Assembly (NCBI RefSeq): GCF_001426345.1
Contig: NZ_LMEM01000001.1
Coordinates: 706,264-770,263, forward strand
DNA: 64,000 bases
Direction of reading: 5' to 3'
From: Devosia sp. Root436
GTDB lineage: Bacteria; Pseudomonadota; Alphaproteobacteria; Rhizobiales; Devosiaceae
Of this stretch, positions 12,197 to 61,830 are shown piece after piece. Position 1 is the first letter of the stretch, and the number at the start of each line of letters is the position of its first letter. A program made the position numbers and the translations under genes. The notes under the pieces are model-generated. The model was not told the origin of the DNA. It did not search any database and saw only the letters and a list, made by a program, of their open reading frames with translations.

Positions 12197-13387
12197 TCAG
12201 CCTGAGTGACCGGCATTGGCCCTAGTTCTGGCGCTCCACACCTCCGCGCCCGCAATCCAGGTCGCCCGCACCTGCCGCGCATCCGACAGATGCACGAAGC
12301 TTGCCACAGCGCCTGGCCGCAAATGTCCGAACTCCCCTTCAATGCCCATGGCCTCCGCGGGGTAGAGCGAGGCCATGCGCACCGCTTCCTCGAAGGGCAG
12401 GCCGATCCTGCGGTGCATGAAGGCAACAGCGTCGATCATGTCGAGGTCGGCGCCGGCCAGCGTCCCGTCGGCGAGGCGCAGCGCGCCGTCGGCGCGGGTG
12501 ATGGTGCGGCCGTTGAGGGTGAGCGTCTTGAGATCGGTGCCGGTCTGCGACATGGCGTCGGTGACGAGAAAGATATGCCCTCCGCCCGATTTGGCGCGCA
12601 GCGCGATCTGTATGGAAGCCGGATGGACATGGATGCCATCGGCGATGAGGCCCGCATTGACGCCCTCCGTCGTCAGCACCGCGCCAACCACCCCCGGCTC
12701 GCGGTTGCCGAGTTGGCTCATGGCGTTGAACAGATGCGTTGCCATGCTGGCGCCGGCGGCAAAGGCGGCGCCAGCCGTGGTCGCATCGGCCTCGGAATGG
12801 CCGAGGCTGACAATGATGCCGGCCGCGGCGAGGGCCGCGATCTGGCCGGGAGTGACGGTTTCGGCCGCGACAGTGCAGAGCAGGTTGGGCAGGTCGGCGC
12901 GTGCCGCGATGAGCCGGGCCAGGTCGTCTCCATCCATCGGGCGGATCAGCGCGGGATCATGCGTGCCCTTGCGGGCCAGCGAAAGATGCGGCCCCTCCAG
13001 GTGCAGGCCGATGAAGCCGGGCACACCCTGCTCGGCCGCCGCCTTGCCGGCGGCCATCGCCGCGACATTGACCGCGACCGTATCGGTGATCAGCGTCGGC
13101 AGCAAAGCCGTGGTGCCGAACTGGGCATGGGCGGCGCAGATGGTGCGGATGGCGTCCACGCTCGGATCGTTGTTGAACAGCACGCCGCCGCCGCCATTGA
13201 CCTGCAGGTCGATGAAGCCGGGCACCAGCATTCCGCCATCGAGGCCAACACGCTCGGCGTTGGTGGGAACCGCGCTCGCCGCGACGATGCCCGAGACATG
13301 GCCGAACTCCACCAGCAGCGCGGCATCGTCATGCCAGCGATGGCCGTCGAAAATGCGGGCGCCTGAAATGGCGCTGAGGTCGCTCAT
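12197..13387 (-). CDS. nagA: N-acetylglucosamine-6-phosphate deacetylase
   Basis: The 396-residue amidohydrolase converts GlcNAc-6-phosphate to glucosamine-6-phosphate and acetate. The metal and catalytic residues of the family are visible: HLEGPH with Glu131, GHSEAD with His197, THLFNAM with His218 and TDAM with Asp277. The N-terminal PGFIDLQVNG is also conserved. Its ATG overlaps the TGA of the SIS-domain gene (ATGA), so the two are translationally coupled in a gntR-nagB-II-nagA operon. The product links GlcNAc-6-phosphate made by MurQ or a kinase to central metabolism. Confidence 0.95.
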   Translation of the reverse strand: MSDLSAISGARIFDGHRWHDDAALLVEFGHVSGIVAASAVPTNAERVGLDGGMLVPGFIDLQVNGGGGVLFNNDPSVDAIRTICAAHAQFGTTALLPTLITDTVAVNVAAMAAGKAAAEQGVPGFIGLHLEGPHLSLARKGTHDPALIRPMDGDDLARLIAARADLPNLLCTVAAETVTPGQIAALAAAGIIVSLGHSEADATTAGAAFAAGASMATHLFNAMSQLGNREPGVVGAVLTTEGVNAGLIADGIHVHPASIQIALRAKSGGGHIFLVTDAMSQTGTDLKTLTLNGRTITRADGALRLADGTLAGADLDMIDAVAFMHRRIGLPFEEAVRMASLYPAEAMGIEGEFGHLRPGAVASFVHLSDARQVRATWIAGAEVWSARTRANAGHSG

Positions 13388-14418
13388 ATCGTTTCCGTGA
13401 CCTTCTTGAGCGCAGGCGGCACGTCGGGATTGAGGCCGCGATGGCGCGACAGTGCTTCGACGAAGCCATAGAAGGAGACGATGAGTGCCAGCGGATCGGT
13501 GATCGGGTGGCCGGTTGCGGCGAAGGGCAAGGCCCTGGCGGCGCCGGGACGGCTGCTGGTGAGGAAGGCCAGCGCACCCTGCCCGGCCAGCTTGTGCGCC
13601 ATGTCGGCCACCGAGGCTTCGGCCGCATCGCGCGCGGCGAGGCCCAGCACGGGATAGCCCTCGGTCACGATGGCGACCGGGCCGTGCATCACTTCGGCGG
13701 CGCTATAGGATTCGGCCTGGATGTTGCAGGTTTCCTTGAACTTGAGCGCCGCCTCGTTGGCGATGGCGAAGCCGGGACCGCGGCCGAGCACATAAAGCGC
13801 ATTATGGCCGTCGAGCGCCCCGATCATCTCGGACCAGTCGCAGGCGACGGCCCTGGCGAGGGATTCGGGCAGCGCATTCACCGCGGCATTGAGCGCATCG
13901 TCGCCGCTCCAGCGGGCTATCAGCGACAATCCGGCCACCACCGAAGTCACGAAGGTCTTGGTGGCGGCGACGGATTTTTCCAACCCGGCATGCAGGTCGA
14001 TGGTGAAATCGGCCGCCTCGGCCAAGGGCGAGCCTGCCGTGTTGGTGATGGCGATGGTGGCAGCCCCCGAGCGCCGGGCCGACTGGGTCATGCCAACAAT
14101 ATCGGGCGACTTGCCCGACTGGGAAATGGCGATGGTCGCGGCGGACGCGAGTTTCAGATCCTTGCCATAGATGGAGGCGACGGAGGGGCCGATGGAGGCC
14201 ACCGGAAGGCCCAGAGTCAGCTCGATGGCATATTTGAGGTAGGAACAGGCGTGGTCGGACGAACCGCGGGCGACCGTTGCGACCAGCACGGGATTGCGCT
14301 CGCGCAAGGCGGCTGCCGCTGCATCGAGCACCGGCCCGCTTTGCTCGAGGAAACCGGCAACGACGCCGGGAATGGCCTCGACTTCATTTCGCATATGGGT
14401 CTGGTTCGACAAAGTCAC
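13384..14418 (-). CDS. SIS-domain glucosamine-6-phosphate deaminase (NagB-II type)
   Basis: The 344-residue protein has two SIS domains resembling the isomerase half of GlmS but no glutaminase half. The segment ALKFKETCNIQAESYSAAEV, followed by MHGPVAI, includes Glu229, Glu236 and His245, matching the GlmS sugar-phosphate active site. Members in nag operons act as the non-orthologous deaminase NagB-II, making fructose-6-phosphate and ammonia. It sits between gntR and nagA with ATGA overlaps on both sides, and no classical nagB is visible in the window. An AgaS-like role is the alternative. Confidence 0.85.
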   Translation of the reverse strand: MTLSNQTHMRNEVEAIPGVVAGFLEQSGPVLDAAAAALRERNPVLVATVARGSSDHACSYLKYAIELTLGLPVASIGPSVASIYGKDLKLASAATIAISQSGKSPDIVGMTQSARRSGAATIAITNTAGSPLAEAADFTIDLHAGLEKSVAATKTFVTSVVAGLSLIARWSGDDALNAAVNALPESLARAVACDWSEMIGALDGHNALYVLGRGPGFAIANEAALKFKETCNIQAESYSAAEVMHGPVAIVTEGYPVLGLAARDAAEASVADMAHKLAGQGALAFLTSSRPGAARALPFAATGHPITDPLALIVSFYGFVEALSRHRGLNPDVPPALKKVTETI

Positions 14419-15203
14419 GTCTTGGAGCCTCCGGATACTGGAGAATCGCCGATCCGCAGTTCGGCGACGAAGTCATAGGTGTCGCCCCGATAAATGGAGC
14501 GGGTGAATTCGATGACCCGCCCGGAGGCGAGGTAGGAGGTGCGCTCGATATTGAGCCCGGCCGAGCCGGACGGCACCTGCAGCAGATGGGCATCCTCATC
14601 ATCCAGGTTGGCGGCGCGGATGCGCTGGATGGCACGGATCGGCCGGTTGCCGGATTTGTCGAGATGCTTGTAGAGGCTGTCGCCGATACTGGCCGGATCG
14701 GGCAGCACCCGCGCCGAGAGGCTGGCGCGCTCGATGGCCAGCGGCGTATCGCCGGTCAGGCGCAGGCGCGAAATGCGCGCCACCTGCTCGCCCGAGGAAA
14801 GACCCAGGATCACGGTTTCTTCCGGCGAGGGCAGGTAAAGCCCGCGATCGAGCCATTCGGCCCGCACCGCCATGCCGCGCCGCGCCATATCTTCGGTGAA
14901 GGAGGTGAGTTGCGACAGCGACTGTTCCACGCGCTGGGTCTGCGGCGCGACGAAGGTGCCTGAGCCGTGCCGCTGCACCAGCACGCCGTCCTTGACCAGT
15001 TGCAGCACCGCCTTGCGCACGGTCACGCGCGAGACGTCGACCTTGGTGGCCAGATCCCGCTCCGAGGGCAGCGCGTCGCCGGGATTGATGGCGCCGCTAT
15101 GGATGGCATCCTCGATCCAGCGCTTGAGCTGGAGATAGAGCGGCCCACCCGATTGCAGCACCACGGGGCCATCGGCAAAGAAACTGTTCGACACGTCGGT
15201 CAC
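14415..15203 (-). CDS. GntR-family (HutC/NagR-type) transcriptional regulator
   Basis: The 262-residue repressor-type protein has an N-terminal winged helix (PLYLQLKRWIEDAIHSGAI, PSERDLATKVDVSRVTVRKA, GSGTFV) and a C-terminal UTRA ligand domain ending in a sugar-phosphate-type pocket (IEFTRSIYRGDTYDF). It is the first gene of the operon with nagB-II and nagA and diverges from a murQ-family gene. By analogy with NagR/DasR it should respond to glucosamine-6-phosphate or GlcNAc-6-phosphate; that is inference. Confidence 0.9.
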   Translation of the reverse strand: MTDVSNSFFADGPVVLQSGGPLYLQLKRWIEDAIHSGAINPGDALPSERDLATKVDVSRVTVRKAVLQLVKDGVLVQRHGSGTFVAPQTQRVEQSLSQLTSFTEDMARRGMAVRAEWLDRGLYLPSPEETVILGLSSGEQVARISRLRLTGDTPLAIERASLSARVLPDPASIGDSLYKHLDKSGNRPIRAIQRIRAANLDDEDAHLLQVPSGSAGLNIERTSYLASGRVIEFTRSIYRGDTYDFVAELRIGDSPVSGGSKT

Positions 15204-15434: not shown

Positions 15435-15467
15435 TTTTTGGCATTATTGCGGCAACTGGAGACCGGT

Positions 15468-16364
15468 ATGAGCGCAACCCAAACCGAGATGACCCATGCA
15501 AGCGCCAGGGGCTTCGATACGCTGCCCCCACAGGATGCGCTGGCGATTCTCGCATCCGCGCAGGCCGAAGCCGCCGCCGCGGTGCAGCAGGCGGTACCCG
15601 ATATTGCCGAAGCGGCCCGGCTTGCCGCCGATTGCCTCGCTGGCGGTGGAAGGCTGGTCTATGTCGCGGCGGGCAGTTCCGGGTTGATGGCGCTGGCCGA
15701 TGCGCTCGAATTGCCCGGCACCTATGGCTTGTCCCGCGACCGCATCAAGGTCCTGCTGGCCGGCGGCATTGCGGGCCTTACCGACATGGTGGGCGGCCCG
15801 GAGGACGATGCCGATGCGGCCCGCGCCGAGATCGCGGCGGCCCATGTCGGGCCGGGCGATTGCATCATCGCCCTCACGGCCAGCGGCTATACGCCCTATC
15901 CCATGGCCGCCGTGGAAGCGGCCCGTGCCGCGGGCGCCAGAACCATCGGCATCAGCAACAACAGCGGCGCACCCATATTCGATCGCGTCGACGTCGCCAT
16001 CTGCCTGCCGACGCCGCCCGAAGTGATTGCGGGCTCGACTCGCATGGGCGCAGGCACCGCCCAGAAGATCGCGCTCAACATGCTCTCCACCATGATGGCC
16101 ATCCATCTCGGCCATGTGCATGACGGCTATATGGTGAGCCTGATCGCCGACAACATGAAGCTGCGCGGCCGGGCGAGGCGCATCGTCATGGCCGTAAGCC
16201 AGGTGCCCGAGGACGAGGCCGCCGCCGCGCTGGAACAGGCCGGCGGCGCGGTGAAAACGGCGATCCTGCTGGCGGCCGGGGCCGATGGCGTAACCAGCGC
16301 GGAGCACTTGCTGGCCGCGAATGAAGGCCGGCTGCGGCCGGCGCTAAAGGCGCTGGGGCGGTGA
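15468..16364 (+). CDS. MurQ-family N-acetylmuramic acid 6-phosphate etherase, paralogue 1
   Basis: The 298-residue SIS protein starts at the ATG at 15468 after GGAG; ten in-frame codons upstream precede that Shine-Dalgarno. MurQ cleaves the lactyl ether of MurNAc-6-phosphate, giving GlcNAc-6-phosphate and D-lactate. The two catalytic glutamates are kept as Glu81 (ADALELPGTYG) and Glu112 (GPEDDAD), as is the STRMGAGTAQK phosphate-site segment. The DASE motif of canonical MurQ is changed to DALE. It diverges from the gntR-nag operon, so its product would feed nagA. A second, more canonical murQ lies at 53.8 kb, so this copy may prefer a variant substrate. Confidence 0.8.
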   Translation: MSATQTEMTHASARGFDTLPPQDALAILASAQAEAAAAVQQAVPDIAEAARLAADCLAGGGRLVYVAAGSSGLMALADALELPGTYGLSRDRIKVLLAGGIAGLTDMVGGPEDDADAARAEIAAAHVGPGDCIIALTASGYTPYPMAAVEAARAAGARTIGISNNSGAPIFDRVDVAICLPTPPEVIAGSTRMGAGTAQKIALNMLSTMMAIHLGHVHDGYMVSLIADNMKLRGRARRIVMAVSQVPEDEAAAALEQAGGAVKTAILLAAGADGVTSAEHLLAANEGRLRPALKALGR

Positions 16365-20268: not shown

Positions 20269-20440
20269 TTCTACGTCTGGATCGTCGCGTCACCGATCTG
20301 CGGGTTTCCGCTTGCATAATTTTCCGGCCGGTAGTTAGCTTTCGGGCGGGAGAGGTCGACGCAAGATCGATGAAACCTACGGGCGGAACTGACCGCCTTG
20401 TGGAACATCCGTTCCAATGAACGGACTTTGGGAGATTACA

Positions 20441-21589
20441 ATGAAACGGCGTGATTTCATGCTCGCTGCCGGCACGGCTGCCGGCGCCCTGATGCTGCCC
20501 CGCATGGCTTTTGCCGCACCGGGCGTCATCGACGTCTATTTCAGCTCGGACCAGAACGTCATCGACTTCTGGACCAATGTGGTGAAGCCGAAATTCGAGG
20601 CCGCCAATGCCGGCGTGACACTCAACCTGGTTGACGGTGGCGACGGCCCCGGCGTCGCGGCGATTGGCGACCGTGCCATGGCCGCCCTGGCCAGCGGCGC
20701 CGATCCGCAGGCCGACCTGTTCGAAGGCTTCGATACGCGCGTCACCGTCGATGGCATCGCCAAGGGCCTTTATGTCGACTTCGAGACGGCTGGCCTCAGC
20801 AACTATTCCAAGGTCAATCCGCTGGCCTTCGATATTCCGACCAACCTGCCCTATCGTGGCTCGCAGGTGCTGCTGGCCTATGACACCACCAAGCTCGATC
20901 CGGCCAATGTGCCCAAGACCTGGGCGGACCTGGTTACCTGGATCAAGGCAAACCCCGGCCAGTTCATCTACAACCGTCCCAACAAGGGCGGTTCGGGCGG
21001 CAATTTCGTGCGCCGCGCCATCTACGAGGCCAATGGGCAGGATCCGGCGGCCTTTACCGTCGACAACTACACCGCCGAAGCCGGCGAAACGATGCTGACG
21101 CCGGCCTGGGACATCCTGATGGACCTGGCGCCCTCGCTGTTCGATGGCGGCGCCTATACGTCGGGCAATACCCAGTCGCTGCAACTGCTCGGCCAGTCGG
21201 CCGTGACGATGATCCCGGCCTGGTCCGACCAGGCGCTGTCGGCCATCGCCCAGGGCGTGCTGCCGGAAACCACCGGCCTCGTGCAACTCCAGGATCTGGG
21301 CCTGCCGGGCGGCTTCACCAAACTGGCCGTGCTCAGCAACGGCGCCAACAAGGATGCCGCGCTCAAGCTCGCCGACTTCCTCCTCACCGAGGAAATCCAG
21401 TCGGCCGTGCTCACCGAACTGGGCGGCTTCCCGGGCGTATCGTGGGATTATATCTCGCCTGAACTGCGCGAGAAATTCGCCGACCTCATCCCGCAGTCCA
21501 TCCCCAATTTCCCCAGCGGGGATTGGGAAAAGGCCATCAACGATGGCTGGTATCGCGCCGTGGCGCCCAACGTGGACCCGGCTTCGTGA
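20441..21589 (+). CDS. ABC importer substrate-binding protein (Tat-type signal)
   Basis: The ATG at 20441 follows GGGAG and begins MKRRDFMLAAGTAAG, a twin-arginine-like signal ending MAFAAP. The 382-residue protein belongs to the iron/polyamine/2-aminoethylphosphonate-type extracellular solute-binding group (DVYFSSDQNVIDFW, then YNRPNKGGSGGNF). Its GTGA overlap with the next permease starts a five-gene operon ending in a glycerophosphodiester phosphodiesterase. With the upstream Pho box, a phosphorus-containing ligand such as a glycerophosphodiester or phosphonate is the likeliest cargo, but this is inferred from context. Confidence 0.82.
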   Translation: MKRRDFMLAAGTAAGALMLPRMAFAAPGVIDVYFSSDQNVIDFWTNVVKPKFEAANAGVTLNLVDGGDGPGVAAIGDRAMAALASGADPQADLFEGFDTRVTVDGIAKGLYVDFETAGLSNYSKVNPLAFDIPTNLPYRGSQVLLAYDTTKLDPANVPKTWADLVTWIKANPGQFIYNRPNKGGSGGNFVRRAIYEANGQDPAAFTVDNYTAEAGETMLTPAWDILMDLAPSLFDGGAYTSGNTQSLQLLGQSAVTMIPAWSDQALSAIAQGVLPETTGLVQLQDLGLPGGFTKLAVLSNGANKDAALKLADFLLTEEIQSAVLTELGGFPGVSWDYISPELREKFADLIPQSIPNFPSGDWEKAINDGWYRAVAPNVDPAS

Positions 21590-22464: not shown

Positions 22465-22465
22465 A

Positions 22466-23287: not shown

Positions 23288-23296
23288 GAAAAACGC

Positions 23297-30003: not shown

Positions 30004-30008
30004 CAGCC

Positions 30009-31157: not shown

Positions 31158-31189
31158 GGACGGGCTCCCGACACTTGAGCACTTTGGGA

Positions 31190-31378: not shown

Positions 31379-31414
31379 CTTCCGCATATTCGATGGAACA
31401 ATCGTCATCCGCCC

Positions 31415-32407: not shown

Positions 32408-32426
32408 GGTCGGTCTCCTTTGCTTT

Positions 32427-32559: not shown

Positions 32560-32578
32560 GTGCGGCAATTGGAAAATA

Positions 32579-32642: not shown

Positions 32643-32656
32643 GGCTCTGGGAGAGC

Positions 32657-46737: not shown

Positions 46738-46742
46738 GTGAT

Positions 46743-52263: not shown

Positions 52264-53283
52264 TCACGCGAAGCCGTTCTCCCTGAAAATCTGTTCCACT
52301 TCGGCATGGAGCGCCTTGACGTCCACCCTGGCGGTGCCGAGCCGCGCCTGGGCCCGGGCGATGCGGCCGAGGCTTTCCTCGGTCAACGGCCGCGCTGCAT
52401 GTGCCGCGGCCAGGCTCGCGGCAAGATCGCCCTGGCTGTGCAGGGCAATGTCGTAGCCGGCATCGAGTGCGGCGCGCACGCGCTCCGGCCAGGTGCCTTT
52501 CAGCGCCTCCATGGTGAGGCAATCGGTGATCAGCACGCCGTCGTAGCCGAGGTCGCGGCGGATGAGATCACAGACCGATGGCGACACGGAGGCCGGGCGC
52601 TCGGGATCGATGCGGGTGAAGATCAGATGCGCCACCATGGCCCAGGGCGCGTCGCGGAGCGCGATGAAGGGGCGGAAATCGGTGTGCAGCATGTCCTCGA
52701 TGGAGGCGTCCACCACAGGGCAATCGAAATGCGGATCGACGGTGACGCGGCCATAGCCGGGGATGTGCTTCATGATCGGCATTTCGCCGGTTTCGAGCAT
52801 GGCGTCGATGACCACGCGGCCCATGGCGATGACGAGATCGGGATCGTCGCCGAAGGCGCGCTGGCCGATGACGTCATGGGTGCCTGAACGGGCGAGGTCG
52901 ACTACGGGTGTCGTGCCGCTGCCGATGGTCAGCTCGGCCATCATCGAGCCCATGGCCAGGGTCGAGAGGCGCAGGGCGCGCTTGCCCAGTTCGATGTCCT
53001 TGCGGGCCAGGGCGCCGAAACTGCCGAGATTGCGGAAGGATGGCCAATTGCCATTGTCGAGCCGCTGCACGCGGCCGCCCTCCTGGTCGATATAGACCGG
53101 GGCATCGTCACGACCCACCGCCTCGCGGAACTGGGCGCAGAGGCGCCGGACCTGGTCGGGATTGTCGATATTGCGGCGGAAGAGAAAGAGACCGAACGGG
53201 TTCACCTCGCGGAAGAAGGCTATTTCGGAGGCCGACAACTGGTAGCCCGGCATGCCGACAAAGAGGGCCAGTGGCGTGGTCAT
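52264..53283 (-). CDS. nagZ: Beta-N-acetylhexosaminidase, GH3 NagZ type
   Basis: The ATG at 53283 overlaps the GNAT stop (TGATG) and gives 339 residues. NagZ removes GlcNAc from GlcNAc-anhydroMurNAc peptides in the cytoplasm. Motifs are IDQEGGRVQRL at 65-75, KHIPGYG at 172-178 (usually KHFPGHG), the acid/base pair Asp183-Pro-His185 (usually D-S-H) and the nucleophile Asp254 in GVLITDCLTMEA. There is no signal peptide. The longer upstream frame lies within GNAT and is rejected. Confidence 0.93.
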   Translation of the reverse strand: MTTPLALFVGMPGYQLSASEIAFFREVNPFGLFLFRRNIDNPDQVRRLCAQFREAVGRDDAPVYIDQEGGRVQRLDNGNWPSFRNLGSFGALARKDIELGKRALRLSTLAMGSMMAELTIGSGTTPVVDLARSGTHDVIGQRAFGDDPDLVIAMGRVVIDAMLETGEMPIMKHIPGYGRVTVDPHFDCPVVDASIEDMLHTDFRPFIALRDAPWAMVAHLIFTRIDPERPASVSPSVCDLIRRDLGYDGVLITDCLTMEALKGTWPERVRAALDAGYDIALHSQGDLAASLAAAHAARPLTEESLGRIARAQARLGTARVDVKALHAEVEQIFRENGFA

Positions 53284-53768
53284 CACCCGGCTGCTCCCGG
53301 CTTGATGCGCAGCAGGCCCTGATAGATATCCTCGTTGTCGGAGGGGATGGGCATGGCGCCGGCAGCCTTGACGTAGAAGTCGACCGGACCGGCAGAGCCG
53401 ATGACGGCATAGGCATAGCCCTGGGCCTTCATGGCGACGAGGGCGCGATGGAACAGCGCCAGGCCGATGCCCCTGCCCCGCTGACTCTCGGCAACGCCGG
53501 TAGGACCGAAGAAGCCGCGGGCGGTGGCGTCGTAGCAGGCAAAGCCGACCAGTTGGCCATCGACCACGGCGATGAGGCAACCGGGCGGCTGATGGGCCAT
53601 GGCGGCGCCGACTTCGCTGACCCAGTATTCGCTGAAATGGGTGCGAACCCAGTCCTTGACAATGTGCTGCTCGGGCGGCAGGGCGACGCGGATCACGGCC
53701 TCGACGGCTTCGGCGCGCTGGCGCAGGTCGTCCAGCTTGCGGCTATAGAGATTGACCAGCAGGTCCAT
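53283..53768 (-). CDS. GNAT-family N-acetyltransferase in the murQ-nagZ operon
   Basis: The 161-residue protein shows the acetyl-CoA pyrophosphate loop SQRGRGIGLALFHRAL, the preceding VVDGQLVGFACYD strand and a C-terminal SAGPVDFYVKAAGA segment. It lies 8 bp after murQ and is coupled to nagZ. Its substrate is unknown. A plausible inference is acetylation of a glucosamine-type or de-N-acetylated muropeptide, which would let NagZ and MurQ use it. Confidence 0.88.
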   Translation of the reverse strand: MDLLVNLYSRKLDDLRQRAEAVEAVIRVALPPEQHIVKDWVRTHFSEYWVSEVGAAMAHQPPGCLIAVVDGQLVGFACYDATARGFFGPTGVAESQRGRGIGLALFHRALVAMKAQGYAYAVIGSAGPVDFYVKAAGAMPIPSDNEDIYQGLLRIKPGAAG

Positions 53769-53776
53769 GATGGCCC

Positions 53777-54712
53777 CTAGCTCGCCGCGCGCGGCTGATG
53801 CTGCGCGGCGGCGCGGCGCAGGAAGCCGTCGGCTTCGACCAGCGCCAGTTCGCCGGCGCGGGCGTCGAGACCGGTCAAGGCCATGAGGATGGCGAGCTTC
53901 ACGTTGTTGTTGCTTTCGGCGAGATAGTGCTCGGCCTCGTCGGCGGTGCAGCCGGTGACTTCGACCAGGATGCGGGTGGCGCGGGCGGCCAGCTTTTCGT
54001 TGCTCACCGACAGGTCAACCATGAGGTTTTCATAGGACTTGCCGATGCGGATCATGCTGGCGGTGGTCAGCATGTTGAGCACCAGCTTCTGTGCGGTGCC
54101 GGACTTGAGGCGGGTGGAGCCGGTAAGGGCTTCGGGGCCGACCACCGGGGAAATGGCGATATCGGCCATGCGGGCGATGGCCGAATCCGGATTGCAGGAC
54201 AGGGCTACGGTGACGGCGCCGATGCCTGCGGCATAGTCGAGGCCGCCGATGACATAGGGCGTGCGGCCGCTCACGGCGATGCCGACCACGACATCCTTTG
54301 CGGACAGGCCGATCTTTTCCAGGTCGCGGCGCCCTTCCCCGCGGTCATCCTCGGCGCCTTCGATGGGATGACGCAGGGCGCGATCACCACCGGCGATCAG
54401 GCCGATCACCATGCCCTCGGGCACGCCGAAGGTCGGCGGACATTCGGAGGCATCGAGCACGCCGAGACGCCCGCTGGTGCCGGCCCCCATATAGACCAGC
54501 CGGCCACCGGCCTTGAAGGCGTCCACGACCTTGTCGACGGCGGCGGCGATGTGGGGGAGTTCCTGCTGGACGGCACCGGCGACCTGCGCGTCCTCGGCAT
54601 TCATGGCGCCAAGAATCTGCTGGGTCGACATGAGGTCGATCTGCACGGTGGCGGGGTTTCTGGCTTCCGAGACCAGTTGCCCCAGCTCGGCCATCAGCAC
54701 GCTCTTTGCCAT
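53777..54712 (-). CDS. murQ: N-acetylmuramic acid 6-phosphate etherase
   Basis: The ATG at 54712 follows GAGGGAC and yields 311 residues; a GTG four codons earlier is less likely. The protein converts MurNAc-6-phosphate to GlcNAc-6-phosphate and D-lactate. Canonical motifs are [20 protein letters not shown] with Glu90, [11 protein letters not shown] with Glu121, and SGRTPYV. The [17 protein letters not shown] segment is also present. It is first in an operon with a GNAT, nagZ and an ABC importer, and diverges from an rpiR regulator. Confidence 0.96.
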
Positions 54713-54739
54713 CGTGTCCCTCACTCGAATTCTGCCGGG

Positions 54740-54776: not shown

Positions 54777-54791
54777 GGAATATTGTATTCC
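54777..54791. promoter_or_regulatory. RpiR operator, site 1 (GGAAT-N5-ATTCC)
   Basis: GGAATATTGTATTCC is a perfect palindrome apart from its centre, located between divergent murQ and rpiR. A second site with the same arms and spacing lies at 55938-55956 upstream of the sugar ABC operon. Confidence 0.75.
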
Positions 54792-54913
54792 TAATTAGAT
54801 CCGCCTGTGCACAATGAGCAGGACGCGACAGCAAGCGGTCCATTGCCATCGAGGGGGCACGGAATTAGTGGTGCGACCCGTCGGGCCGGTTGCCGACGCT
54901 CAAGGGAGAAGGC

Positions 54914-55762
54914 ATGTCGATACTCAAGGCTCTCAGCGCGCAACTCGATTCCCTGACCGCGGCCGACCGGCAGATCGCGCAATTCATCATCGACCACCCC
55001 AATGAGATGCTCGCCATGTCCTCGGCGGCGCTGGCGGAAGCGACGGGACGCAGCCAATCGAGCGTAGTGAAATTCAGCCAGAAGCTGGGGTATGGCGGCT
55101 ATCAGCAGCTCAAGCTGGCGGTGAACAAGGCCAAGGCGCTGGAATGGCAGGCCCCCGGCGGGGTGATCCACGGTACGATCGACGCCAGCGACAGCTACAT
55201 GACCATCCTGCAGAAGCTGATCGGCAGCAAGCTGCTCTCGATGCGCGAGACTTCGGCTGCCAACTATGAGCATACGATCGACGCGGCCCTGGAGGCGCTG
55301 GGAAATGCTCGCAAAATCCAGCTCGCCGGGGTCGGCGCATCCTCGCTGGTGGCGCGGGATTTTTCCTACAAGCTGCTGAAACTTGGGCGCTCGGTGCTGA
55401 TGGACAGCGACAGCCATATCCAGATCGCCAATGCTTCGGCGCTGAACGGACAGGATACGCTGCTGGCGCTGTCGCATTCGGGCCGGAGCCTTGAAACGCT
55501 GCGCATCGCCGAAGTCGCCAAACGGCGGGGCGCCAAGGTGATTTCGGTCACCGGGCTGCAACCCAATCCGCTGCTCGACGTGGCCGATATCCACCTGTTC
55601 ACAGTTGCCGACGAGGAAAGGGTCCGCTCCTCGGCCATCACCTCGCGCGATGCGCAGTTGATGCTGATGGACATGCTGTTCATCCTGCTGGTGCGACAGC
55701 AGGTCGATGCGCATGACTATGTCCACAACAGCGAAAGCGCCGTGACGGTGCTGAAGGCGTGA
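54914..55762 (+). CDS. RpiR/MurR-family transcriptional regulator
   Basis: The ATG at 54914 follows GGGAGAAGG and gives 282 residues. The N-terminal RpiR helix-turn-helix is seen in SLTAADRQIAQFIIDHPNE, then ALAEATGRSQSSVVKFSQKLG. The C-terminal SIS domain (IQLAGVGASSLVARDFSYKL, LSHSGRSLETLRIAEVAKRR) binds a sugar phosphate. As in E. coli MurR, which senses MurNAc-6-phosphate, the ligand is probably MurNAc-6-phosphate or GlcNAc-6-phosphate. It sits between the murQ and nanE operons, both of which carry the same palindrome. Confidence 0.92.
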   Translation: MSILKALSAQLDSLTAADRQIAQFIIDHPNEMLAMSSAALAEATGRSQSSVVKFSQKLGYGGYQQLKLAVNKAKALEWQAPGGVIHGTIDASDSYMTILQKLIGSKLLSMRETSAANYEHTIDAALEALGNARKIQLAGVGASSLVARDFSYKLLKLGRSVLMDSDSHIQIANASALNGQDTLLALSHSGRSLETLRIAEVAKRRGAKVISVTGLQPNPLLDVADIHLFTVADEERVRSSAITSRDAQLMLMDMLFILLVRQQVDAHDYVHNSESAVTVLKA

Positions 55763-55921: not shown

Positions 55922-55956
55922 TTGACAGGCGTCCATTTTGGAATTCAGTATTCCAA
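55922..55956 (+). promoter_or_regulatory. Promoter with RpiR operator, site 2
   Basis: TTGACA (55922-55927) is a consensus -35. The palindrome TTGGAAT-TCAGT-ATTCCAA (55938-55956) covers the expected -10 region, an arrangement typical of repression. The arms extend those of site 1 by two bases on each side. The ABC operon begins at 56031. Confidence 0.7.
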
Positions 55957-56030
55957 TCGTCGGTCGCATACCTGGGAGAGGCGTGCCCGCGCTGGCGCGA
56001 CGCCCCATCGGCGGCGGCCAAGGAGGAAAC

Positions 56031-57104
56031 TTGGCTCAACTGTCACTCCGCGGCATCAAGAAGCGCTTCCGGAATACCGAGGTGCTGCACGGCATCGACC
56101 TCGAAATCGGGGATCGGGAATTCGTGGTGTTCGTGGGGCCGTCCGGCTGCGGCAAGTCGACCCTGTTGCGGTTGATCGCCGGGCTCGACCCGATGACGGA
56201 TGGCGAATTCCTGCTCAATGGCCGGCGCATGAACGAAGTGCCGCCATCGCGGCGCGGCATCGCCATGGTGTTCCAGTCCTACGCGCTCTATCCGCATATG
56301 GATGTCTACGAAAACATGGCCTTTGGCGCGCGCCTGATGGGGCTCGACAAGGCCGAGGTGGAGCGGCGCATCGCCGAGACGACGCGGATGCTGCGGCTGG
56401 AGGAATTGCTGCAGCGCAAGCCGCGCGAATTGTCGGGCGGCCAGCGGCAGCGCGTGGCCATCGGCCGGGCGCTGGTGCGCAAGCCCGAAGTGTTCCTGCT
56501 CGACGAGCCGCTTTCCAATCTCGACGCGGCCTTGCGCTCGGAAGTGCGGCTGGAGATTGCCAGGCTGCATCACGATATCGGCGGCACCATGATCTATGTC
56601 ACGCATGACCAGGTCGAGGCCATGACGCTGGCCGACAAGATCGTGGTGATGAATGCCGGGCGCATCGAGCAGGTCGGCTCGCCGCGCGAACTCTACGAGA
56701 CGCCGGCCAATACCTTCGTCGCCACCTTTATCGGCTCGCCGCGCATGACGCTGCTCGATGTGACGCGGGATGGCGAGCGGCTGGTGATGGCGGATGGTGG
56801 CAGTATCGCGGTGGGCGCCCTGCCCGCAGGTTCGGCCTTCAGGCTCGGCCTGCGCTCCGATGCAGTCAGGCTGGCCAGGGGCCAGGGCGACGGCTTTGCC
56901 GGGCAGGTCGTCTATACCGAATACCTGGGCGACAATGCCTATGTCTATGTGCGCCTCGCCGACGGCACGCTGCTGGCCGCGCGCACCGCCCCCAATGACA
57001 GTTTCGCACCCGATGAACCGGTGACCGTCCGCGTCGATCCGGGCTCGGTGCATTTCTTTTCCGCCGAGGATGGCCGGCGGCTGACGCAACAAGCGGCAGA
57101 ATAA
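56031..57104 (+). CDS. Sugar ABC importer ATP-binding protein (UgpC/MsmX-like)
   Basis: A TTG at 56031 directly behind AGGAGG is the best start and yields 357 residues; the longer frame crosses the operator. Motifs are [48 protein letters not shown] and [12 protein letters not shown]. The C-terminal TOBE domain includes [12 protein letters not shown] and [12 protein letters not shown]. It is a CUT1-class sugar ATPase and first gene of a six-gene operon ending with nanE and a sugar kinase. Confidence 0.93.
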
Positions 57105-57134: not shown

Positions 57135-58376
57135 ATGAATACCAATCTCATCCGCATCGGCGCAGCCCTGGGGGCCGTGCTCGTCGCCGCCCCGGCGCTC
57201 GCCCAGGACCTGACATTCTGGAGCTGGCGCCAGGAAGACCGCGCCGCCTATGAACAGTTCATCGATACGTTCGAGGCGGCCAATCCTGGCATTACGGTGA
57301 AGTTCGAGACCTTCGAAGCGGCCAATTACAACACCATCCTGTCGACGGCTTTGGCCGGCGGCGTCGGCCCCGACGTGATGATGGTGCGCGCCTATGGCGG
57401 GCTCGAAAACGTGGCTTCGGCCGGGTATCTCGAGCCGCTCACCACTGAATCGGTGCCGGCGCTGGCCGAGTTTGCGGCCCCGGCCGTGGCGGCGGAGTCG
57501 ATGCGCTCGGACGGCAAGATCTATGCCGTGCCGTTTGCCAGCCAGACCCAGTTGGTCATCTACAACAAGGCCATTTTCGACGCCAATGGCCTCAGCGAAC
57601 CGCAGAGCTGGGATGAGCTGGTTGCCGCAAGCCAGACGCTCAAGGATGCCGGCGTGATCCCCTTTGCCAACGGCACCGCGACTGCCTGGCAGAACGAGAC
57701 CGTGACCTTCGGGCTCGGTTCCTCGCTGATGGGCAAGGGGTTTTATGACGAGCTGATGGCCGGCACCGCCGACTTTACCGATGCACGGTTCACCGACGCC
57801 CTGGCTGCGGTCAACGCGGTGGCGCAGGACTACTTCCCCGATGGCTTTATCGGCCTCGACTACCCTTCCGCCCAGCAGTTGTTCAGCTCGGGCATGGCCG
57901 GCATGTTCATCGGCGGCTCCTATGAGATGGCGACGTTCAAGGCGCAGAATCCGGATATCGAGCTGGGCGTGTTCGCCGCGCCGGGCAAGACCGCCGAGGA
58001 TGCCAAGCTGGTCGGGCTCTATTTCGACGGCGGCTATGCGGCCAATGCGGCCGGCGCCAACAAGGAAGCCTCGATCAAGTTCCTCAACTATCTCGCCAGC
58101 AAGGAATTCGGCCAGGCCTTCGCCAATACGCTGAGCAATATCTCGACCGTTCCGGGCGTCAGCTTCGACAATCCCCTGCTGGCCGAGGTCAACGAGCTCA
58201 ACCAGTCCTCGATCCCCTATCTGATGCTGGCGCATTTCCGCTATGGCGAGCCCTCCGGCTCGGTGCTGATCCAGAGCGAGATGCAGAAGCTGTTCGCGGG
58301 CGAAACCACGCCCGAAGCGATCGGCGAGGCGCTGACCACCGGCCTGGCGGCCTGGTACGAGCCTTTCCAGAACTAA
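57135..58376 (+). CDS. CUT1-type sugar-binding protein
   Basis: The 413-residue precursor has a signal peptide (MNTNLIRIGAALGAVLVAAP, cleavage at ALAQ) and the SBP_bac_1 pattern LTFWSWRQEDRAAYEQFIDTF, GPDVMMVRAYGG and YAVPFASQTQLVIYNKAIFD. It binds the cargo of the following permeases. Neighbouring nanE and kinase genes suggest N-acetylmannosamine, N-acetylglucosamine or N-acetylmuramic acid. A Shine-Dalgarno GAGGGAG precedes the ATG. Confidence 0.92.
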   Translation: MNTNLIRIGAALGAVLVAAPALAQDLTFWSWRQEDRAAYEQFIDTFEAANPGITVKFETFEAANYNTILSTALAGGVGPDVMMVRAYGGLENVASAGYLEPLTTESVPALAEFAAPAVAAESMRSDGKIYAVPFASQTQLVIYNKAIFDANGLSEPQSWDELVAASQTLKDAGVIPFANGTATAWQNETVTFGLGSSLMGKGFYDELMAGTADFTDARFTDALAAVNAVAQDYFPDGFIGLDYPSAQQLFSSGMAGMFIGGSYEMATFKAQNPDIELGVFAAPGKTAEDAKLVGLYFDGGYAANAAGANKEASIKFLNYLASKEFGQAFANTLSNISTVPGVSFDNPLLAEVNELNQSSIPYLMLAHFRYGEPSGSVLIQSEMQKLFAGETTPEAIGEALTTGLAAWYEPFQN

Positions 58377-58446: not shown

Positions 58447-59367
58447 ATGCCCCACCTTCGGATGACCGGCCGAGGCCTCTGGATCACCGCCCTCATCGTG
58501 CCGCCGCTGGCGTTCGTGGCGGTGTTCATCGTCTACCCGATCCTGTCGGCCTTCGCCTATGCCTTCTTCGACTGGCAGGGGCTGCGCCGGGGCGAGTTCG
58601 TCGGCTTCGACAATTTCTTCACGGTGCTGTTCGTCGAGCCCTACCGGAGCTGGACCATCAACGCCTTCAGCCACAATATCATGGTGTTCTTCGCGCTGAT
58701 GGTGCTGCAGAACGGACTGGGCTTCATCCTGGCCTATGCCTTGTGGCGGGAATTGCCGGGCGCGCGCTTCCATCGCGTGGCCGTGTTCCTGCCCGTGGTG
58801 CTGTCCACCATCATCGTGGCCTATCTGTTCAAGCTGTTCCTGCATCCGCTGTTCGGGGTGGTCAATGTCAGCCTCAAGGGCATCGGGCTCGGCTGGCTGG
58901 CCCAGCCGTGGCTGGGGCAGAGCGACACGGCGCTATGGTCGCTGATCGCCGCGCAATCCTGGCATATGGTGGGGTTTCCGACCCTGGTATTCCTGGCCGG
59001 CATGCAGCGCATTCCGGGGGAAATCCTCGACGCGGTACGTATGGAAACCCAGAGCGAATGGGTCAAAATCTCCAGGATCGTCTGGCCGCTCGTGGCGCCC
59101 AGCGCCACCATCGTCTTCACGCTGCTGTTCGTGGGGGCGTTCAACTGGTTCGAGCTGCCCTATATCATGGCCGGGCTCGATGGCTCGCCATTCGGCTCGA
59201 CTGACGTGCTGGGGCTCTATTTCTACCGCACCGCCTTTGGCAACGTCTCGTCCGGCCAGCAGGATTTCGGCCTCGGCAGCGCGCTGGCTGTGCTGATCTT
59301 CGTGTTCATCGCCCTCATCGCCGGCATCATCACGGTGCGGCTGCGCGCCAGGGAGATCCAGCTGTGA
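58447..59367 (+). CDS. CUT1-type sugar ABC permease
   Basis: The 306-residue permease has about six helices, starting ITALIVPPLAFVAVFIVYPI. It carries the coupling motif EILDAVRMETQSEWVKISRI, and its LEEA-like region follows MQRIPG. It is MalF/UgpA-like. Its stop overlaps the GTG of the next permease. Confidence 0.93.
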   Translation: MPHLRMTGRGLWITALIVPPLAFVAVFIVYPILSAFAYAFFDWQGLRRGEFVGFDNFFTVLFVEPYRSWTINAFSHNIMVFFALMVLQNGLGFILAYALWRELPGARFHRVAVFLPVVLSTIIVAYLFKLFLHPLFGVVNVSLKGIGLGWLAQPWLGQSDTALWSLIAAQSWHMVGFPTLVFLAGMQRIPGEILDAVRMETQSEWVKISRIVWPLVAPSATIVFTLLFVGAFNWFELPYIMAGLDGSPFGSTDVLGLYFYRTAFGNVSSGQQDFGLGSALAVLIFVFIALIAGIITVRLRAREIQL

Positions 59368-60227
59368 GCGCCGCCGGCACAATCGACTATGATCGCCGGG
59401 GACTGCTCGGCACGCTGGGCCGGGACGGGCTGCTGCAGATCATCCTCATCGCCAACACCATCCTGATGCTGGCGCCCATCGTCATCATGGTATTCTCGGC
59501 GTTCAAGACGACGCCGCAAATCTTCCAGTCGCCGTTTGGGATTCCCGATTTCGGCCAGGTGGCGAACTTCGCCAAAATCTGGACGCAGACCAATTTCCTG
59601 CGCTACCTGTTGAACTCGTTCTTCGTCACCGGCGCCTCGATGGTGCTGATCCTGACGCTGGGCACCATGGCCGCCTATGCCATCGGGCGCTACCAGTTCA
59701 GCGGGGCGAGCTTCATCCTGATGTTCTTCCTCGCCGGGCTGACGCTGCCGCTCAAGCTGGCCATCATCCCGCTGTTCATGCTGATGCGGGATCTGTCCAT
59801 CCTCAACAATCAGCTGTCGCTGATCTTTGTCTATACGGCGATGGGCCTGCCGACGACGGTCTTCATCATGACCGGCTTCATCCGCACGCTGCCCAGCGAG
59901 CTGGAAGATGCGGCGCGGATGGATGGCGCCAGCGAAGCGCGCATCATGTGGTCGATCATGCTGCCGCTGGTGCGGCCGGCCATGGTGATTGCCGGCATCC
60001 AGAACGTGGTGCCAATCTGGAACGATTTCTTCTTCCCGCTGGTCTTCATCCAGAACGACGACCTCAAGACCCTGCCCCAGGGCCTCACCACCTTCATGGG
60101 GGAATATACCACCGACTGGGGCGTGCTGTTCTCGGGGCTGACGCTGTCGGCCGCGCCCATCGTGGTGCTGTATATCGTGCTGTCGCGGCAGTTCATCGCC
60201 GGCATGACATCGGGAGCGGTGAAATGA
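59364..60227 (+). CDS. CUT1-type sugar ABC permease
   Basis: The 287-residue permease starts at a GTG in GTGA overlap with its partner. It is MalG/UgpE-like: about six helices and the coupling motif SELEDAARMDGASEARIMWS, with the C-terminal LSRQFIAGMTSGAVK typical of the family. Its last codons overlap the nanE start (ATGA). Confidence 0.93.
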   Translation: MSAAGTIDYDRRGLLGTLGRDGLLQIILIANTILMLAPIVIMVFSAFKTTPQIFQSPFGIPDFGQVANFAKIWTQTNFLRYLLNSFFVTGASMVLILTLGTMAAYAIGRYQFSGASFILMFFLAGLTLPLKLAIIPLFMLMRDLSILNNQLSLIFVYTAMGLPTTVFIMTGFIRTLPSELEDAARMDGASEARIMWSIMLPLVRPAMVIAGIQNVVPIWNDFFFPLVFIQNDDLKTLPQGLTTFMGEYTTDWGVLFSGLTLSAAPIVVLYIVLSRQFIAGMTSGAVK

Positions 60228-60889
60228 AGCTGACGCGCGGCCTCATCGTTTCCTGCCAGGCGCGGGCCGACAATCCGCTGCACGGCCCCCAATTCATGGG
60301 CGCCATGGCGCTGGCGGCGCGTGACGGCGGGGCGGTGGCCATTCGCGCCAACGGCCCGGAGGACATTGTTGCGGTCCGGGCGGCGGGCCTGCCGGTCATC
60401 GGCATCCACAAGGTGTTTTCCGACCGCTACCCGGTCTATATTACGCCCCACTTCGCCGCCGCCGCGGCAATCGTCGCGGCCGGCGCGACCATCGTGGCGC
60501 TCGATTGCACCAATCGCCCACGCGACGGGGAGGCCCCTGCCGTGCTGGTGCGCCGCATTCGCGAAGAACTGGGCGCCGAGGTCTTTGCCGATATCTCCAC
60601 GGTTGACGAAGGGCTGGCCGCCGCCGATCTTGGCGCAACCTATGTGGCGACGACGCTTTCGGGCTATACCGAGGCCACCCAACCCAAACCCGCGGAGCCG
60701 GACCTGGCCTTGCTCGAAACGCTCGCTGCGCGGCTGTCCGTGCCGGTTGTCGCCGAAGGCCGCTATAACACGCCGGCTCTGGTGCGGCGGGGTTTCGAGG
60801 CCGGGGCGCATGCCGTGGTCGTCGGCACGATGATCACCAATCCGCGCGAAATCACCCGCCTGTTCGTGGGTGAAGGCGTGCCCCGTTGA
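60224..60889 (+). CDS. nanE: N-acylglucosamine-6-phosphate 2-epimerase
   Basis: The 221-residue TIM-barrel protein interconverts N-acetylmannosamine-6-phosphate and GlcNAc-6-phosphate. NanE motifs are LIVSCQARADNPLHGPQFM, GIHKVFSDRYPVYITP with the active-site Lys, VALDCTNRPRDG, and VVAEGRYNTP with the catalytic Glu. The ATG at 60224 overlaps the permease stop. Its product joins the NagA pathway. No sialate lyase is seen in the window. Confidence 0.94.
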   Translation: MKLTRGLIVSCQARADNPLHGPQFMGAMALAARDGGAVAIRANGPEDIVAVRAAGLPVIGIHKVFSDRYPVYITPHFAAAAAIVAAGATIVALDCTNRPRDGEAPAVLVRRIREELGAEVFADISTVDEGLAAADLGATYVATTLSGYTEATQPKPAEPDLALLETLAARLSVPVVAEGRYNTPALVRRGFEAGAHAVVVGTMITNPREITRLFVGEGVPR

Positions 60890-61830
60890 GGGTGACCGCG
60901 CAACTGGGAATCGATGTGGGCGGGACGGCCAGCCGCTGGGTGGCCTGTGACGGCCAGGGCACCATCCTGGCCCGCGGCAAGGCGGCGGGGGCGACCGCCC
61001 ATGTGTTCAACCCTGCGGAGAAAGAGCGGCTGCTGGCGGCACTGGCCAGTATCGCGGGAGCGCTTGATGAGGCGGGCCTGGCCGCGGGCAGTATCGTGGC
61101 GGGGCTGACCGGCTATGGGGCCGCCGTAGCCGGCGATATCGAAGCCCTGCTCGGCCAGGTATTCGGCACCGCGGCGGACGATATCGTCGTCACCGACGAT
61201 ATCGTGCTGGCCTATATGGCCAATTTCGCTCCCGGCGAGGGCCACCTGGTATCGGCCGGAACCGGATCGATCGGGCTCCATATCGGCGAGGGCGGCGACT
61301 ATGTGCGCGTCGGCGGGCGCGGCATTCTCATCGACGATGCCGGCTCGGGAAGCTGGATCGCGTTGCGGGCGCTGGACCTTGTCTATCGCGCGCTCGACCA
61401 TTCCGGCTCGTTCGCCGCCGTGGCCGGGCTGGCGCAGCAGCTGTTCGCGGAAATCGGCGGCGATGCGTGGCACGACACCCGCCAGTTCATCTATGCCGGC
61501 GACCGGGGCCGCATCGGCTCGCTCGCCGTGGCCGTGGCGCGCGCCGCCGAGGCGGGAGACGCCGTCGCGGTCTCCATCCTGCGCGAGGCCGGCGCCGAAC
61601 TGGCAGAGCTGGCCAAGGCACTGATCGCCCGCGCCGGCAGCCGGCCAATCGGGTTCACGGGCGGGGTGCTTGCCCTGCACCCGCTGATCGTCGAGGCGAT
61701 AAGGGAACACCTAGCCGGCCACGATGTCCGCCTGGTTGGGGCAGATGCCGCCCTTGCCGCGGCACGGCTCCAGACTGTCGGAAATGCAGGCTGGCGCCAG
61801 ATTCTGGCTGCACGATCATCGATCGCCTGA
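60886..61830 (+). CDS. BadF/BadG-family amino-sugar kinase
   Basis: The 314-residue kinase starts with a TTG overlapping the nanE stop (TTGA); a GTG at 60892 is an alternative. It has the ASKHA fold: phosphate loop GIDVGGTASRWVA, TDDIVLAYMANF, and SAGTGSIG with the adenosine-site GFTGGVLALHP. This family includes eukaryotic-type GlcNAc kinase and clostridial MurK, which phosphorylates MurNAc and GlcNAc. With nanE and a sugar importer it probably phosphorylates imported ManNAc, GlcNAc or MurNAc. Confidence 0.87.
   Translation: MRVTAQLGIDVGGTASRWVACDGQGTILARGKAAGATAHVFNPAEKERLLAALASIAGALDEAGLAAGSIVAGLTGYGAAVAGDIEALLGQVFGTAADDIVVTDDIVLAYMANFAPGEGHLVSAGTGSIGLHIGEGGDYVRVGGRGILIDDAGSGSWIALRALDLVYRALDHSGSFAAVAGLAQQLFAEIGGDAWHDTRQFIYAGDRGRIGSLAVAVARAAEAGDAVAVSILREAGAELAELAKALIARAGSRPIGFTGGVLALHPLIVEAIREHLAGHDVRLVGADAALAAARLQTVGNAGWRQILAARSSIA

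Follow-up and report, generated by a model that had tools for sequence, protein, structure and literature searches.

How are peptidoglycan sugars taken up by a bacterium that has no AmpG permease? The question is raised by a 64,000-nucleotide stretch of the Devosia sp. Root436 genome (contig NZ_LMEM01000001.1, positions 706,264 to 770,263 of the forward strand), here called the window, in which two ATP-binding cassette (ABC) importers are encoded beside genes for the catabolism of N-acetylmuramic acid (MurNAc). The window is part of contig 1 of a 3.9-Mb genome that is 99.97% complete. AmpG, which the initial annotation had not seen in the window, is absent genome-wide (best TIGR00901 match 19.5 bits against a cut-off of 350). 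We read the locus as a MurNAc-catabolism gene set with a MurR-like regulator, in which two ABC importers replace the phosphotransferase system (PTS) permease MurP. One of them, whose solute-binding protein (SBP) is linked to nagZ and is named SBPnz, would likely take up the disaccharide of N-acetylglucosamine (GlcNAc) and MurNAc, GlcNAc-(anhydro)MurNAc. On sequence evidence, the probability of this reading is put at about 0.52.

The nagZ-linked gene run

Gene families were called by hidden Markov model (HMM) profiles, with the cut-offs of curated models quoted beside bit scores, and signal sequences were judged by eye. The nagZ-linked run lies on the minus strand and starts with murQ2 (53777-54724), encoding a MurNAc-6-phosphate (MurNAc-6-P) etherase that scores above the TIGR00274 cut-off (403 vs 302 bits). 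MurQ2 is 53% identical to E. coli MurQ and retains the positions of Glu83 and Glu114, which we take to be the catalytic residues. Between murQ2 and nagZ2 there is a gene for a GNAT acetyltransferase (53283-53768; Pfam Acetyltransf_1, 34.2 bits); a GNAT-NagZ pair was reportedly noted by Reith and Mayer in 2011. nagZ2 (52264-53283) encodes a glycoside hydrolase family 3 (GH3) protein of 339 amino acids without a signal sequence, 36% identical to E. coli NagZ. It is called NagZ-type here since its NF003740 score of 190 bits is just under the NagZ equivalog cut-off of 207. When compared with KHFPGHG...DSH, presumably the catalytic loop of NagZ, the NagZ2 loop KHIPGYGRVTVDPH retains the D and H of D-x-H, and the GHG of the KHxPGxG loop is now GYG. 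A His/Asp catalytic dyad is described for NagZ-type GH3 enzymes in an excerpt of PMC4680927. The genome has four GH3 matches, and the one outside the window that is closest to NagZ in length has a signal-like N-terminus.

The run continues with the gene for SBPnz (50575-52230), which has a signal sequence, the permease genes B (49354-50331; BPD_transp_1) and C (48463-49350; BPD_transp_1 and OppC_N), and the ATPase genes D (47648-48466, start approximate) and F (46743-47651), both with ABC_tran and oligo_HPY. In this run and the anmK-linked one, gene spacing is -4 to +49 bp, with the exception of 243 bp between SBPnz and its permease, and thus fits operons.

SBPnz, 99% identical to its counterpart in the closest named relative, Devosia sp. 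Root635, belongs to the chitooligosaccharide-binding family. It aligns with the Vibrio proteins VcCBP and VhCBP over residues 31-550 of 551, at about 45% identity and 521 bits. In the same search, chains named dipeptide-binding protein or DppA gave at most 40 bits and DppE gave 55. The initial annotation had called this importer Dpp-type, a label that fits the gene layout and not the cargo, and it was dropped. Since SBPnz groups with chitooligosaccharide-binding proteins, its cargo is likely a disaccharide rather than a peptide. The Foldseek top ten for its structural model (mean predicted local distance difference test, pLDDT, 68) are the same Vibrio-type binders at 45-47% identity, so that the fold repeats what the sequence gave. 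A second relative of this family, 39% identical to SBPnz and outside its GH3-linked clade, is encoded elsewhere in the genome (C13:38445-40100).

The sugar-binding pocket of SBPnz

A clade survey covered 84 loci, the best 80 matches in genomes and 4 on plasmids. A GH3 gene lies directly upstream of the binding protein in 32 of them, and a GH20 gene is found in 42, downstream of the ATPases in 40 of these; 10 loci have neither in the stretch examined. GNAT genes accompany both types (26/32 GH3-linked and 34/42 GH20-linked loci). In a tree made by a quick method, one branch with SH-aLRT 94 parts the GH3-linked from the GH20-linked binding proteins. A distant CBP relative on Vibrio coralliilyticus plasmid p319 (L118) stands with GH16 and GH3 enzymes and a porin, which suggests a glucan cargo.

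Pocket positions are the chitobiose contacts of VcCBP given in an excerpt of PMC10667598, read from an alignment that is gap-free nearby; VhCBP numbers are higher by one. They were counted in 35 complete proteins of the GH3 clade (2 of 37 were incomplete and dropped) and in 42 GH20-linked proteins. All 35 GH3-clade proteins keep Glu9, Asn203, Ser220, Phe221, Trp362, Asp364 and Arg435. In place of Asn408 of VcCBP they have Ala (29) or Ser (6), in place of Trp512 Ser (34) or Thr (1), and none of the 35 has an aromatic residue at 410, which is Phe in VcCBP. Phe is the commoner residue at position 436 (29, against 6 with Thr), and position 513 holds Asn, Arg, Lys or Val.

The roles of these contacts are described for VhCBP in an excerpt of PMC8449061. 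Trp363, Glu10, Asn204 and Ser221 hold the non-reducing GlcNAc, Asp365 forms two hydrogen bonds, and Arg436 and Phe437 read the N-acetyl group. Asn409 bonds the second sugar, whose O3 is met by a water molecule in the N409A mutant. Trp513 provides stacking for the ring of this sugar, which is abolished in W513A, and is also in contact with the N-acetyl group of the first. The Kd for chitobiose rises from 0.03 µM to 0.45 µM in N409A, 0.40 µM in F411A and 36.8 µM in W513A (PMC8449061). The same excerpt calls Asn204, Trp363, Asp365 and Trp513 completely conserved in cluster C-IV. The first three are kept in SBPnz, and Trp513 is changed to Ser. SBPnz has in common with the cluster C-IV proteins VcCBP and VhCBP full-length homology, the residues of GlcNAc site 1 and the N-acetyl-reading Arg, whereas it is without Asn408, Phe410 and Trp512 and has a NagZ-type GH3 enzyme as its partner and murQ/anmK as neighbours.

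The three losses were considered as a mark of the GH3 clade and rejected, because the GH20-linked clade has them too. There, all 42 proteins have Ser or Ala at 408 and His at 512, and 40 have Ala or Pro at 410, the other 2 having Phe. Arg435 is lost in 40/42, to Thr (38), Ser (1) or Val (1), and present in 2, and position 513 is acidic throughout (Asp in 41, Glu in 1). The hallmarks of the GH3 clade are instead the retained Arg435, mostly with Phe436, a small residue at 512 and a non-acidic one at 513. The SBP-BCDF-GNAT-GH20 set of Rhizobium is a sister importer clade that has the GNAT and the losses at 408, 410 and 512, but GH20 in place of GH3, His512, an acidic 513 and, in nearly all members, no Arg435. 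MurNAc is GlcNAc with a lactyl ether, bearing a carboxylate, on O3. With GlcNAc binding and N-acetyl reading retained, an opening at O3 and at the ring face, and no acid at 513, the GH3-clade pocket would suit GlcNAc-(anhydro)MurNAc. The GH20-clade pocket, which is acidic at 513 and no longer has the N-acetyl reader, would be suited to deacetylated chitin sugars.

The anmK-linked gene run and gene order

The second importer is encoded on the plus strand. Its binding protein, SBPanmK (38902-40416; start MQMKFT), is a generic SBP_bac_5 protein (Pfam, 285 bits) with a signal sequence. It is followed by permeases B (40466-41425) and C (41425-42264; start MRIVRD), both BPD_transp_1, a fused double ATPase DF with two ABC_tran stretches (42261-43991), an S12 serine hydrolase (43988-44989) and anmK (44999-46117; NF007141, 486 bits, above the cut-off of 352), the only AnmK match in the genome. 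The nearest solved relative of SBPanmK is PDB 5u4o (172.6 bits), and the protein stays generic; its cargo was not narrowed by sequence comparison, and its AlphaFold model has a mean pLDDT of 60. The S12 protein is YfeW/PBP4B-like and has no signal sequence. Its best curated relative is NCBIfam PBP4B, below the cut-off (60.6 vs 385 bits); it is 28% identical to E. coli YfeW (E 5e-20), with SxxK, YSD, SGHAGLF and GHTG common to both, and a search of solved structures gave 34 bits at best. The S12 gene and the GNAT gene at 53283-53768 had been overlooked in the initial annotation. In the window, the run SBPanmK-B-C-DF-S12-anmK converges on the nagZ-linked run. A second GNAT gene (46321-46740, minus strand) is also present; such a gene lies next to anmK or between both importers in many Devosia loci.

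In E. coli, the order is murR / murQ-murP-yfeW with murR divergent, and in the window it is rpiR / murQ2-GNAT-nagZ2-SBPnz-B-C-D-F. Devosia sp. Leaf420 (L056) has a divergent rpiR and a single run on one strand, murQ2-nagZ2-SBPnz-B-C-D-F-S12-anmK, with gaps of about 11 bp between murQ2 and nagZ2, 15 bp between ATPase and S12, and 10 bp between S12 and anmK. Two other loci (L228 and L235) have a divergent rpiR-like gene and murQ2-SBPanmK-B-C-DF-S12-anmK, and the latter order is also found in Devosia sp. Root413D1 (L061). Thus, both importers of the window occur in the position of MurP in relatives, among which other arrangements of these genes are common as well. The E. coli set likewise has a regulator of the MurR kind and one run that encodes MurQ, a transporter and a hydrolase of the YfeW/PBP4B kind. 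The Devosia transporter, however, is an ABC importer and not the PTS permease MurP, the hydrolase is without a signal sequence, and a NagZ-type enzyme, GNAT and AnmK are added. MurP is not found in the gene run, where the ABC genes stand; PTS genes elsewhere in the genome were not searched. In four further loci (L219, L220, L223 and L224), S12-anmK, a MurQ relative of about 40% identity, the msmX-SBP-nanE-badF importer and a member of a clade 34-39% identical to SBPanmK are clustered together, and the binding-protein genes and the ATPase genes diverge.

The regulator and its putative operator

The gene divergent from murQ2 (54890-55762, plus strand) encodes an RpiR-type regulator with HTH_6 and SIS domains, MurR-like in that it is 36% identical to E. 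coli MurR (E 2.8e-47). MurR-type repression is relieved by MurNAc-6-P. The gap between rpiR and murQ2 contains the palindrome GGAATATTGTATTCC (54777-54791), a putative RpiR operator, and a second putative operator, GGAATTCAGTATTCC (55940-55954), lies at the start of the sugar-importer genes described below; both match the motif exactly. Because the second palindrome is inside the longest open reading frame of msmX (55938-57104), the true msmX start is probably downstream.

Exact matches to the motif GGAATN5ATTCC number 37 in 1.02 Mb of loci, almost all of them from Devosiaceae, where 0.40 would be expected from base composition; these loci were picked for carrying the genes in question, and some genomes are represented by two loci (e.g., L056 = L237), so that not all sites are independent. 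Many relatives have it ahead of murQ2 or nagZ2, and the mapped sites are next to rpiR or precede murQ2, msmX or the GNAT-nagZ2-SBPnz genes. Five genomes in which nagZ2-SBPnz and murQ2 are unlinked still have the palindrome upstream of nagZ2-SBPnz (L039 of D. riboflavina, L040, L041, L046 and L054), and it is also present at their murQ2-rpiR-msmX loci, matched by coordinates (L241-L244 and L246). Several mapped SBPanmK genes have a second rpiR-like gene alongside.

Co-occurrence across Devosiaceae

The coupling of both importers to peptidoglycan-sugar enzymes, already claimed in the initial annotation, is supported by neighbourhoods and co-occurrence in 136 Devosiaceae genomes as well as by the palindrome. 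Since the genomes are related to one another, Fisher values overstate significance. AnmK is present in 82/136 genomes, above the cut-off in 81 (81 of 83 rows were counted; a row under the cut-off and an additional fragment from one genome were dropped). Within 12 kb of it, SBPanmK or its 34-39% clade is found in 67/81 genomes (81 of 82 SBPanmK rows counted, one second fragment dropped). GH3-clade SBPnz is present in 54/136 genomes, and 53 of the 54 have AnmK, the exception being a 62%-complete genome; of the other 82 genomes, which are without GH3-clade SBPnz, 28 have AnmK. The association holds within the genus (AnmK in 40/41 genomes with GH3-clade SBPnz vs 16/34 without) and in other genera (13/13 vs 12/48), with P values of 7e-16 overall and 3e-7 and 8e-7, respectively, which serve as a guide only.

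Two sets of paralogous binding proteins were used as controls, 48-52% (29 genomes) and 36-42% identical (35 genomes). In genomes without the GH3 clade, they occur with AnmK in 7/16 and 3/8 cases, respectively. Across all genomes, the 48-52% clade shows no link to AnmK (20/29, p 0.17). As to neighbours, 55 SBPnz places in Devosiaceae were counted (at least 66% identity, one piece per split gene). A strong murQ, that is, one of the 96 rows of at least 340 bits among the matches listed, is within 5 kb in at least 27, anmK within 25 kb in 26, and either of them in at least 32.

Known uptake and recycling routes in the genome

Rhizobiales and Rhodobacterales are mostly without AmpG, and one alternative muropeptide importer has been described there, according to an excerpt of PMC9790009. 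The same excerpt states that in A. tumefaciens a yejA mutant behaves like the wild type and that YepA is the muropeptide-binding protein. In Devosia sp. Root436, uptake might be accounted for by YejABEF elsewhere in the genome, as the initial annotation had considered. Indeed, a yejB-yejE-yejF-SBP operon is present on contig C9, with 55-57% identity to E. coli YejB, E and F, but its binding protein is of the YejA type, 52% identical to S. meliloti YejA (structure 7z8e). With E. coli YejA as the query, the C9 protein scores 362 bits, SBPanmK 67 and SBPnz 58, so that the binding proteins of the window are not close to YejA. Among the 20 SBP_bac_5 matches, no second YejA/YepA-type protein was found besides that of C9 (next best 67 bits). 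The importer proposed here would resemble Agrobacterium YejBEF-YepA as an SBP_bac_5-class ABC importer for peptidoglycan turnover in a bacterium without AmpG, whereas its SBP is from another subfamily and a separate yejBEF-YejA system is present in Devosia. It would likely share with AmpG the task of GlcNAc-anhydroMurNAc uptake, although AmpG is a permease of the major facilitator superfamily.

The genome also encodes one AmpD-family amidase (an Amidase_2 protein on contig C2). The initial annotation spoke of recycling. Of the enzymes present, MurQ, NagA and the NagB-II-like deaminase lead to fructose-6-phosphate, i.e., to catabolism. As for the AmgK-MurU pair of Pseudomonas and Agrobacterium, no nucleotidyltransferase was seen by eye in the 1.5-kb flanks of the 6 APH matches; murU itself was not searched. 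As AmgK beside a nucleotidyltransferase, the rebuilding route of A. tumefaciens, was not seen, peptidoglycan sugars are probably burnt and not rebuilt.

Weighing the alternatives

Several observations weigh against our reading. Its weakest point is the cargo of SBPanmK, and the palindrome was not found at SBPanmK genes in the mapped loci. Even upstream of nagZ2-SBPnz, an exact palindrome is found within 450 bp in just 14/28 loci. At 23 of the 55 SBPnz places, both a strong murQ (within 5 kb) and anmK (within 25 kb) are missing among the matches listed. In Rhizobium, Phyllobacterium, Thalassospira, Martelella and Aurantimonas, where a GNAT-GH3-SBP-BCDF module occurs, tblastn of the examined flanks gave no murQ or anmK. 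The narrow miss of NagZ2 at the equivalog cut-off belongs here as well. The 36-42% paralogue clade tracks AnmK when all genomes are counted (30/35, p 1.5e-4); from its 3/8 in genomes without the GH3 clade, this link comes with the GH3 clade. At the level of the order, AnmK is in 355/397 genomes, so that the co-occurrence test is powerless there, and order-level co-occurrence was rejected as support.

The pocket and its relatives leave room for SBPnz as an importer of chitobiose or chitosan oligosaccharides, with the GNAT acetylating glucosamine ends for GH3 and with murQ/anmK sharing only amino-sugar catabolism. The nearest characterised relatives of SBPnz are indeed the Vibrio (GlcNAc)n-binding proteins. 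The sister clade of Rhizobium and others, which is tied to a GNAT and to GH20 β-N-acetylhexosaminidase, a partner that points to chitin sugars, has the same pocket losses at 408, 410 and 512; this lowers the odds of our reading and raises those of a chitin cargo. In addition, an invariant Asn one residue before 408 could compensate for the lost Asn408. The excerpt of PMC4680927 reports a fungal fusion of a GH3 enzyme with a GNAT that acetylates glucosamine, and in that of PMC8449061 the VhCBP single mutants with matching losses, N409A, F411A and W513A, still take chitobiose and crystallised with it. Each loss, however, costs VhCBP about 15-, 13- or 1200-fold in chitobiose affinity (PMC8449061). 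Also against a chitin cargo, the GH3 clade tracks AnmK (53/54) while paralogues in genomes without that clade do not, Leaf420 has it in a single run with murQ, the yfeW-like gene and anmK, and nagZ2-SBPnz and murQ2 have a palindrome in common. On balance, a chitin cargo is regarded as unlikely, though a serious contender.

Fainter still is the prospect that SBPnz carries whole anhydromuropeptides as a stand-in for YepA, with the peptide then removed by the AmpD-family amidase. AmpG and a second YejA/YepA-type binding protein were not found, an Amidase_2 protein is available, the lost contacts are on the side where a lactyl-peptide would lie, and a peptidase-like S12 protein travels with anmK. 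The closest relatives of SBPnz, on the other hand, bind peptide-free sugars, YejA-YejBEF could serve this purpose, and nothing peptide-specific is found in the nagZ-linked run of the window. It is also conceivable, albeit very improbable, that the importers take up unrelated peptides or sugars and owe their grouping to common descent from one Devosia island: such importers are numerous (20 SBP_bac_5 matches in the genome) and the compared genomes are related. Against this, the parts have been repeatedly rearranged yet are found together again, the palindrome is retained at unlinked copies, and the genus and the other genera, taken apart, each show the co-occurrence.

Other genes of the window

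The genes listed in the initial annotation are present and HMM-confirmed (NagA, deaminase, GntR, two MurQ, GH3, AnmK, RpiR, NanE and kinase), as are one sugar importer and two importers of Dpp architecture by anmK and nagZ-murQ. They do not form the single 50-kb island that it had proposed; that unit was rejected, since unrelated genes over about 22 kb split a nagA-nagB-gntR-murQ1 block from the rest. This block consists of nagA (12197-13387), an SIS-type, NagB-II-like deaminase gene (13384-14418; 302 bits vs a cut-off of 430) and gntR (14415-15203) on the minus strand, and murQ1 (15438-16364) on the plus strand. MurQ1 passes the subfamily model NF003915 (323 vs 168 bits) and fails the equivalog TIGR00274 (223 vs 302). 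The genome has three MurQ-family matches, and both strong ones among the matches listed are in the window. The block is separate from the importer module and would supply the lower pathway.

Between both blocks are genes for a GH2 enzyme, another importer, GDPD, a phosphatase, a Na/Pi transporter, a third Dpp-type importer and a Y-family polymerase. The importer at 20417-24337 (plus strand) is of the SBP_bac_8/SBP_bac_1 type and is followed by the glycerophosphodiesterase gene (24334-25167), so its cargo is possibly glycerophosphodiesters. The third importer of Dpp/Opp layout (27922-34684, minus strand), which adjoins a LacI-type gene (34900-35928, plus strand), was rejected as part of the set, as its 675-residue binding protein is nearest to SPH1118 (292 bits), named pectin-binding; it is possibly an oligogalacturonide importer. 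Near the start of the window, a 686-residue protein (2043-4103, plus strand), about 41 kb from anmK, has a lytic transglycosylase SLT domain, the enzyme type making anhydromuropeptides. A protein of 1117 residues (6051-9404, minus strand) has an OmpA domain at its C-terminus and weak BON matches.

The sugar importer downstream of rpiR is encoded on the plus strand by msmX, for an ATPase with ABC_tran and TOBE_2, an SBP_bac_1 binding protein gene (57135-58376) and two BPD_transp_1 permease genes (58447-59367 and 59364-60227). The PDB matches of the binding protein reach 96 bits at the top, with the chitin-sugar binders NagB2 and NagB1 at 85 and 77. Then follow nanE (60224-60889; Pfam NanE, 167 bits), for the N-acetylmannosamine-6-phosphate epimerase, and a BadF-type, GlcNAc-kinase-like gene (60886-61830; NF046058 NagK, 76 vs 370 bits).

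A proposed pathway and its meaning

In the proposed pathway, lytic enzymes would release GlcNAc-(anhydro)MurNAc, and SBPnz would deliver it to the transporter formed by permeases BC and ATPases DF. Sugars that have been deacetylated may regain their acetyl group through the GNAT, and NagZ2 would cleave the disaccharide. GlcNAc would be converted to GlcNAc-6-phosphate (GlcNAc-6-P) by the BadF-type kinase and anhydroMurNAc to MurNAc-6-P by AnmK; MurNAc-6-P, which would also relieve RpiR repression, would be split into GlcNAc-6-P and lactate by MurQ2. NagA and the NagB-II-like deaminase would then yield fructose-6-phosphate. The SBPanmK importer, with S12 and AnmK, may carry (anhydro)MurNAc or its short peptides, and the sugar importer with NanE and the kinase, under the same palindrome, may bring in a sugar of the same pathway.

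Apart from YejBEF-YepA, no description of an ABC importer for GlcNAc-(anhydro)MurNAc or MurNAc was met in the literature searched. The initial annotation had supposed new dedicated importers for peptidoglycan fragments; the coupling stands, and the cargo is a prediction, made for SBPnz at the level of residues. A chitin-sugar carrier has probably moved into a murR-murQ-yfeW-type gene set and changed its cargo. The stronger claim, that a former chitobiose ABC importer, with a second-sugar site opened at O3 and the ring face and with its N-acetyl reader retained, became the first dedicated GlcNAc-(anhydro)MurNAc importer and in Devosia holds the MurP position in a murR-murQ-yfeW-type regulon extended by nagZ and anmK, is tentative, at a little under an even chance. 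If true, a carrier of chitin sugars can be adapted to MurNAc, and peptidoglycan sugars would be burnt via MurQ and not rebuilt via AmgK/MurU. A second, sugar-level route would then make peptidoglycan uptake in Rhizobiales and Rhodobacterales modular.

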